From contig DASSPH010000079.1 of NCBI GenBank assembly GCA_035699745.1, positions 1 through 64,000 of the forward strand: DNA of 64,000 bases, written 5' to 3'. Of this stretch, positions 49,461 through 50,129 are shown piece after piece (position 1 is the stretch's first letter; each line of letters begins with the position of its first letter). The translations under genes were made by a program, and so were the position numbers. The notes beneath the pieces are model-generated. The model was not told where the DNA came from. It saw only the letters and a program-made list of their open reading frames with translations, and made no database searches. The stretch is from Vicinamibacterales bacterium (lineage in GTDB: Bacteria; Acidobacteriota; Vicinamibacteria; Vicinamibacterales; 2-12-FULL-66-21).

Positions 49461-50129
49461 ATGACCGCCCTGATCCGGGACGTCCGCCTCTATATCTACA
49501 ACCAGCTGATCGAGACCTCCGCCGCGCCGTCGACGGCGGATACCGCGGCCGCGCTGGCGCGCCCCGAGGCGGAGATCACCGCCGCGTATCGCGAGCTGGC
49601 CGACGCGAAGGTCCTCGTCCTCCGCCCCGGATCGCACACCGTGTGGATGGCGATGCCGTTCTCGAACATGCAGACGGCGTTCACGGTCATCGCCGGCGGC
49701 CGCGCCTACTACGCCAATTGCGCCTGGGACGCGTTCGGCGTGCCGGCAATGCTCGGCATCGACGCGCGCATCTTCACCACCTGCCCGGACTGCGGCGGCG
49801 TGCTCGAGCGCAAGATTGCGAACGGCGCGGTGACGGAAACGCGCGGCGTCGTCCATTTTGCGCTGCCGCCGTGGCGCTGGTGGGACGACGTCGGCTACAC
49901 GTGAGCGACGATTCTGCTCTTCAGTTCCGAAGAGCACCTCGACGCCTGGCTGGTGAAACGGCGGCTGCCGCGCGGCGCGGTTCTCACGCTGGAGCAGACC
50001 TGGGCGCTCGCCCGGGCGTGGTACGCGGATCGAATGCACCCGGACTGGCGCCGCCGCACGCCGCAGGACGCCACCGACGCGTTCGCGTCCGTCGGGCTCA
50101 CCGGCGAGTTCTGGACGATGACGCCGTGA
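49461..50129 (+). CDS. MerB-like (organomercurial lyase family) probable selenoprotein, UGA-Sec at 49902-49904
   Basis: Reading 222 residues with one in-frame TGA decoded as selenocysteine. MerB landmarks appear in order: N-terminal helical domain; NCAWDAFGVPAMLG with Cys87 and Asp90 (MerB Cys96/Asp99); FTTCPDCGG; then WWDDVGYT and the TGA at residue 148, followed by ATILLFSSEEHLDAW. In MerB of plasmid R831b the same position is catalytic Cys159, 63 residues after Cys96 (here 61), and 15 residues before a Trp in both. Downstream codons have high GC3 and end in the MerB C-terminal helices. A SECIS-like hairpin follows the TGA. Stopping at 49904 would delete a third of the family domain. An ordinary nonsense mutation or base error is the alternative. 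Substrate (mercury or otherwise) is not proven. Confidence 0.8.
49915..49936 (+). promoter_or_regulatory. Bacterial SECIS-like hairpin downstream of in-frame UGA
   Basis: TGCTCTTC (49915-49922) pairs perfectly with GAAGAGCA (49929-49936) around a six-base loop AGTTCC (49923-49928). The loop has G in its second position followed by T, and starts 18 nt after the TGA. Bacterial SECIS elements, as described from fdhF onward, have a short stem, a small loop with an exposed GU and a UGA-to-loop distance of about 16-37 nt. SelB binding is inferred. Confidence 0.75.

Follow-up and report, generated by a model that had tools for sequence, protein, structure and literature searches.

The window, a stretch of 64,000 nucleotides from a Vicinamibacterales bacterium (contig DASSPH010000079.1, positions 1 to 64,000), carries on its plus strand, at 49461-50129, a gene comprising 222 codons when an in-frame UGA at 49902-49904 is read through, and terminated by a TGA at 50127-50129. 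Translation identified the TGA at codon 148 as the sole internal stop in this frame. MerB, the enzyme that breaks carbon–mercury bonds, employs Cys96, Asp99 and Cys159 in catalysis. In the window protein, Cys87 (TGC, 49719-49721, plus strand) and Asp90 (GAC, 49728-49730, plus strand) lie within the motif NCAWDAFGVP and correspond to Cys96 and Asp99, and the TGA, located 61 residues past Cys87 and 15 residues ahead of Trp163, falls onto Cys159 in alignments with the solved MerB and MerB2 chains; with selenocysteine (Sec, U) inferred at codon 148, the motif at the second catalytic site reads T-U. A gene of MerB length with one TGA interruption and a second stop, the spacing of these residues, and the placement of the TGA at the second catalytic Cys had all been put forward in an earlier note made from the sequence alone, and were confirmed by translation and alignment. 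Its expectation that automated annotation would truncate the gene was likewise met, the list of open reading frames giving a 147-aa product. A perfect 8-bp hairpin directly after the TGA, with a GU in its six-base loop, was also found as described, at 49915-49936 on the plus strand and within the gene, with the loop AGUUCC at 49923-49928.

Against the Pfam MerB model (PF03243), the window protein scored 97.5 bits at a cut-off of 27, which meets the criterion for the superfamily; the criterion for the catalytic positions is met with Cys87, Asp90 and Sec148 (UGA) at the places of MerB Cys96, Asp99 and Cys159. The NCBIfam equivalogs for organomercurial lyase MerB were missed (NF009710, 42 of 193 bits; NF033555, 33 of 200 bits). 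In alignments to MerB/MerB2 sequences from the PDB, the best solved chain was 5c17 (E 8e-9). An AlphaFold model of the protein (pLDDT 95.9) matched MerB2 (5c17) with a Z-score of 19.9 across 188 residues and MerB (3f2f) with a Z-score of 15.6, and the Foldseek match had an E-value of ~5e-11; the best non-MerB structures reached only about Z 6 and covered mainly the N-terminal winged helix. By sequence and predicted structure, the gene encodes a MerB-superfamily protein with the MerB fold. It shares with MerB/MerB2 (PF03243; 3f2f, 5c17) the fold (Z 15-20), the length, the positions of Cys96, Asp99 and Cys159 and an N-terminal winged-helix-like part, and differs from the characterised members in having ~20% identity to them, Sec replacing Cys159, no Cys160, scores under the NCBIfam MerB cut-offs and a location outside any mer operon.

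A search of species genomes for relatives yielded 34 loci, 26 of which have a TGA at exactly the window's codon, making 27 such loci with the window itself. According to their titles, the 26 relatives stem from Acidobacteria/Terriglobia, Gemmatimonadetes, Chloroflexi groups, Calditrichota and Marinimicrobia; archaeal relatives from Euryarchaeota, Thermoplasmata, Nitrososphaeria and Bathyarchaeota have TGC at the aligned codon. Cys87, Asp90 and the UGA/Cys column are all invariant in alignment A1 (32 sequences). Of 98 aligned relatives, 69 have UGA, 26 have Cys and one has Trp at the second catalytic position, where two sequences are unaligned; the catalytic pair is Cys/UGA in 55, UGA/UGA in 14, Cys/Cys in 26 and Ser/Trp in one. 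The Ser/Trp case (L066, genome G211), a locus from the window's own order with Trp encoded by TGG, is apparently a degenerate or repurposed copy; its genome has selA.

A single in-frame stop and a truncated 147-aa call by standard annotation are also what would be expected of a pseudogene, that is, of a MerB-like gene interrupted at codon 148 by a nonsense mutation or a sequencing error. This reading is countered by the TGA recurring at the identical codon in dozens of genomes, with Cys found there otherwise, by the synonymous constraint on the hairpin (see below), and by the equal identity on either side of the stop: relatives are 41% identical to the window protein upstream of the TGA and 40% downstream, so the downstream part is conserved equally to the upstream part. 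As the same TGA occurs in dozens of independent genomes, sequencing error is excluded, and the concern that reads might show TGC/TGT at 49902-49904 falls away. The checks proposed in the earlier note, for conservation past the TGA and for TGA or a Cys codon in relatives, thereby came out in its favour, with one degenerate TGG exception. Going by these comparative data, we regard the pseudogene or error reading as already refuted, with scarcely any probability left to it.

In bacterial SECIS elements, the loop lies 16-37 nt from the UGA and has a G early in the loop. The window hairpin, UGCUCUUC-AGUUCC-GAAGAGCA with a perfect 8-bp stem, satisfies this rule, with its loop beginning 19 nt past the UGA, and is conserved and covarying among relatives. 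Their hairpin, UCUUCC-GGUC-GGAAGA, is likewise found 19 nt past the UGA, and none is present in Cys forms: the mean stem length is 6.6 bp in 69 UGA contexts versus 1.7 bp in 26 Cys contexts, and 61 of the 69 have the loop GGUC. The window hairpin is unusual in missing the innermost pair and in having two additional outer pairs. Taken alone, its local folding stands out only slightly (z about -1.8 to -2.2), and single-sequence folding separates UGA forms (mean z -0.63) weakly from Cys forms (+0.07); the case for the hairpin was built on codon and pair analysis, not on these z-scores. The top five of 99 A1 columns for excess synonymous-codon identity were codons 153-157, i.e. those of the hairpin. 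In a separate set of 29 UGA loci from a profile search, picked on amino acids only, Ser156 was encoded by TCG in 29 of 29 (background 31%), Arg155 by CGG in 27 of 28 (background 23%) and Glu157 by GAA in 24 of 29 (background 37%). Compensatory exchange was seen at pair 22-27 (C-G 56, U-A 10) and at pair 16-33 (C-G 21, U-A 20) in the 69 UGA contexts. As far as aligned codons and base pairs can establish it, the hairpin is selected as RNA, at synonymous sites.

The host genome (6.3 Mb, estimated completeness 100%) contains selA (527 bits), selB (352 bits) and one tRNA-Sec with a UCA anticodon; these three components of the selenocysteine machinery, among those the earlier note had proposed to look for, were searched and all are present. 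Their presence is permissive and not decisive, since selA was also detected in six of six tested genomes of the same family or order that lack the gene. The match between codon and machinery across genomes is closer. SelB was above cut-off in 25 of 26 UGA-form genomes (in the remaining one, G024, just a fragment was seen, at the edge of a contig) versus none of seven archaeal Cys-form genomes. Among further, profile-found genomes, selA was present in 13/13 with single-UGA genes from the window's phylum, in 15/15 single-UGA Chloroflexota and in 12/13 with double-UGA genes (all but G148, an assembly of 750 contigs), and in 0/4 Chloroflexota carrying a close Cys form. UGA forms are hence confined to genomes with Sec genes, except for the two incomplete cases. 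The Cys-type MerB-like proteins of archaea and Chloroflexota (L027, L030, L034, L094, L096, L098) are close homologues with the NCAWD and TC motifs; they differ from the window protein in having Cys at that position, in the absence of the hairpin, and in genomes without selB or selA above cut-off.

Decoding of the UGA as another residue, by stop-codon reassignment or near-cognate read-through, might be suggested by the Trp (TGG) at this site in L066. That lone Trp form also lacks Cys87 and looks degenerate, of the 27 aligned relatives without UGA 26 have Cys, the window gene itself terminates at TGA, and the host has selA, selB and tRNA-Sec; we consider non-Sec decoding very improbable. The selenoprotein reading of the earlier note is supported by the aligned UGA/Cys column, the host selA, selB and tRNA-Sec, and the constraint on the hairpin, and we put the probability that the window gene is a Sec-encoding MerB-superfamily gene at roughly 90%, Sec incorporation itself being inferred. 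UGA codon 148 would be translated as selenocysteine by SelB and tRNA-Sec, steered by the hairpin just downstream.

Whether a MerB-like selenoprotein had been described before was left undecided in the earlier note. A member of the superfamily is indeed known: SaoL, a MerB-like selenoprotein and organometallic lyase encoded in the multi-selenoprotein SAO operon, was described in a 2026 review, where its motif is given as CU (PMC13188914). SaoL (NF040728) resembles the window protein in belonging to the MerB superfamily and having one Sec, and differs from it in the motif, CU versus T-U. With NF040728, the window protein scored 43 bits at a cut-off of 140; this criterion was missed and identity with SaoL rejected. 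The relatives tested, double-UGA forms included, were also under this cut-off. The NF040728 model has 159 positions, the last of them lying roughly at the second catalytic site, so the Sec of SaoL is probably located at or next to that site; as no SaoL above cut-off was found in 400 Chloroflexota genomes, this position is inferred from model coordinates only. None of the tested proteins with one or two UGAs falls under an NCBIfam model (June 2026), our literature searches found no description of the window subfamily or of the double-UGA forms, and the Deep-Sep, GOS and ISME selenoproteome papers contain no MerB selenoprotein in their main text. The window protein and its relatives constitute a real selenoprotein subfamily, probably undescribed, inside a superfamily with one known selenoprotein.

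Profile searches revealed two further, more distant clades in which each of the two catalytic positions has an in-frame UGA. Clade II, with the pattern AAUxxDA...(Y/F)UxxxFFWSEEHAR, comprises loci from the window's phylum (L074, L075, L076, L080, L083, L084, L124) and from Chloroflexota (L110, L129, L130); its first UGA is followed by the hairpin GCCCUU-CGUGC-AAGGGC and its second by UUCUUCU-GGUC-AGAAGAA, both with GU in the loop, and all three proteins tested were above the Pfam MerB cut-off (34-49 bits). Clade III (L107, L126, L127, L128, L125) has the pattern QUG(F/L)(E/D)...UxxMxLFRSEEH, with Glu replacing the catalytic Asp in most members and, in L125, UGA only at the second site, the first having kept Cys. 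Of the two hairpins of clade III, the second resembles that of the window clade; the one after the first UGA is weaker and contains G-U pairs. In some relatives, both catalytic positions thus appear to be occupied by selenium. A structure prediction for one double-UGA protein was poor (pLDDT 53, six sequences) and was set aside. In one genome, a double-UGA MerB-like gene has a second selA some 0.7 kb away (G247:C19:231471-234244, L119).

The neighbours of the window gene, judged from sequence, look like genes for a P-loop NTPase, a zinc-ribbon protein and a spermidine-synthase-like protein, with no SAO operon apparent among them at this level of reading; none is a mer gene, and the window gene is not part of a mer operon. 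No gene was common across lineages among the neighbours within 5 kb of the relatives, and no MerA was found above the curated cut-off in the host genome (best 336 bits versus 454). A mer-operon context was rejected on these grounds. Without a MerA above cut-off, a route for released Hg(II) is not evident, and in the absence of mer neighbours, a shared gene and MerA, mercury is the likeliest but not the sole candidate metal.

For the enzyme itself, a catalytic triad Cys87-Asp90-Sec148 instead of MerB Cys96-Asp99-Cys159 is proposed. Following established MerB chemistry, from which all steps are inferred, Cys87 and Sec148 would bind the metal of an organometal (R-Hg+), methylmercury or another organomercurial being the likeliest substrate, Asp90 would protonate the carbon, and the hydrocarbon RH would be released with the metal remaining on Cys/Sec. 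As a ligand, Sec would be more acidic than Cys and bind mercury more avidly. Organomercurial cleavage is the reaction we lean towards, with substrate and catalysis inferred by analogy and activity untested. The proposal lacks a read-through or activity experiment, identity to characterised MerB is low, and the substrate could be another organometal.

A MerB-fold Sec protein might instead perform another job, either cleaving other organometals or metalloid compounds, or binding metals or thiol metabolites without carbon–metal cleavage, which rivals the assigned reaction only and leaves the selenoprotein claim untouched. The lack of mer neighbours and of a clear MerA in the genome, the distance from real MerB and the replacement of Asp90 by Cys or Glu in some relatives are in keeping with such a role, and SaoL was named an organometallic, not an organomercurial, lyase (PMC13188914). 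Within the window subfamily, neither Asp90 nor either of the two thiol/selenol positions varies; together they make up the catalytic set of MerB, and we hold a different function to be possible, if the less probable assignment. In two MerB-like proteins, L070 and L071 (PCMWCALG / PCLWCAFG), the catalytic Asp is replaced by Cys, and the second site is Cys as well; for L070, no NCBIfam model matched.

Mercury toxicity and selenium are chemically linked, and MerB, the best-known demethylating enzyme, is a pure thiol enzyme. With organomercurial cleavage as the reaction, the natural series of Cys/Cys, Cys/Sec and Sec/Sec forms in one fold would render the effect of selenium on C-Hg cleavage directly measurable. 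Standard gene calling truncates these genes and drops one catalytic residue. This may account for the absence of MerB entries for Acidobacteria in a large mer-gene survey (PMC8261052), and loci titled Acidobacteria do carry MerB-like UGA genes; owing to such truncated calls, the methylmercury-demethylating potential of soils may be undercounted. As a conjecture that could fall either way, these proteins may form a widespread, previously unrecognised group of organometal lyases that depend on selenium and are encoded outside mer and SAO loci, graded from Cys/Cys over Cys/Sec, as in the window, to Sec/Sec, and providing soil and subsurface bacteria with high-affinity demethylation of trace methylmercury. 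Nearer to canonical MerB, a further Chloroflexota locus (L133, genome G504) has UGA at the Cys159 site, followed by Cys160 (LUCKIYYFAS) and a downstream hairpin.
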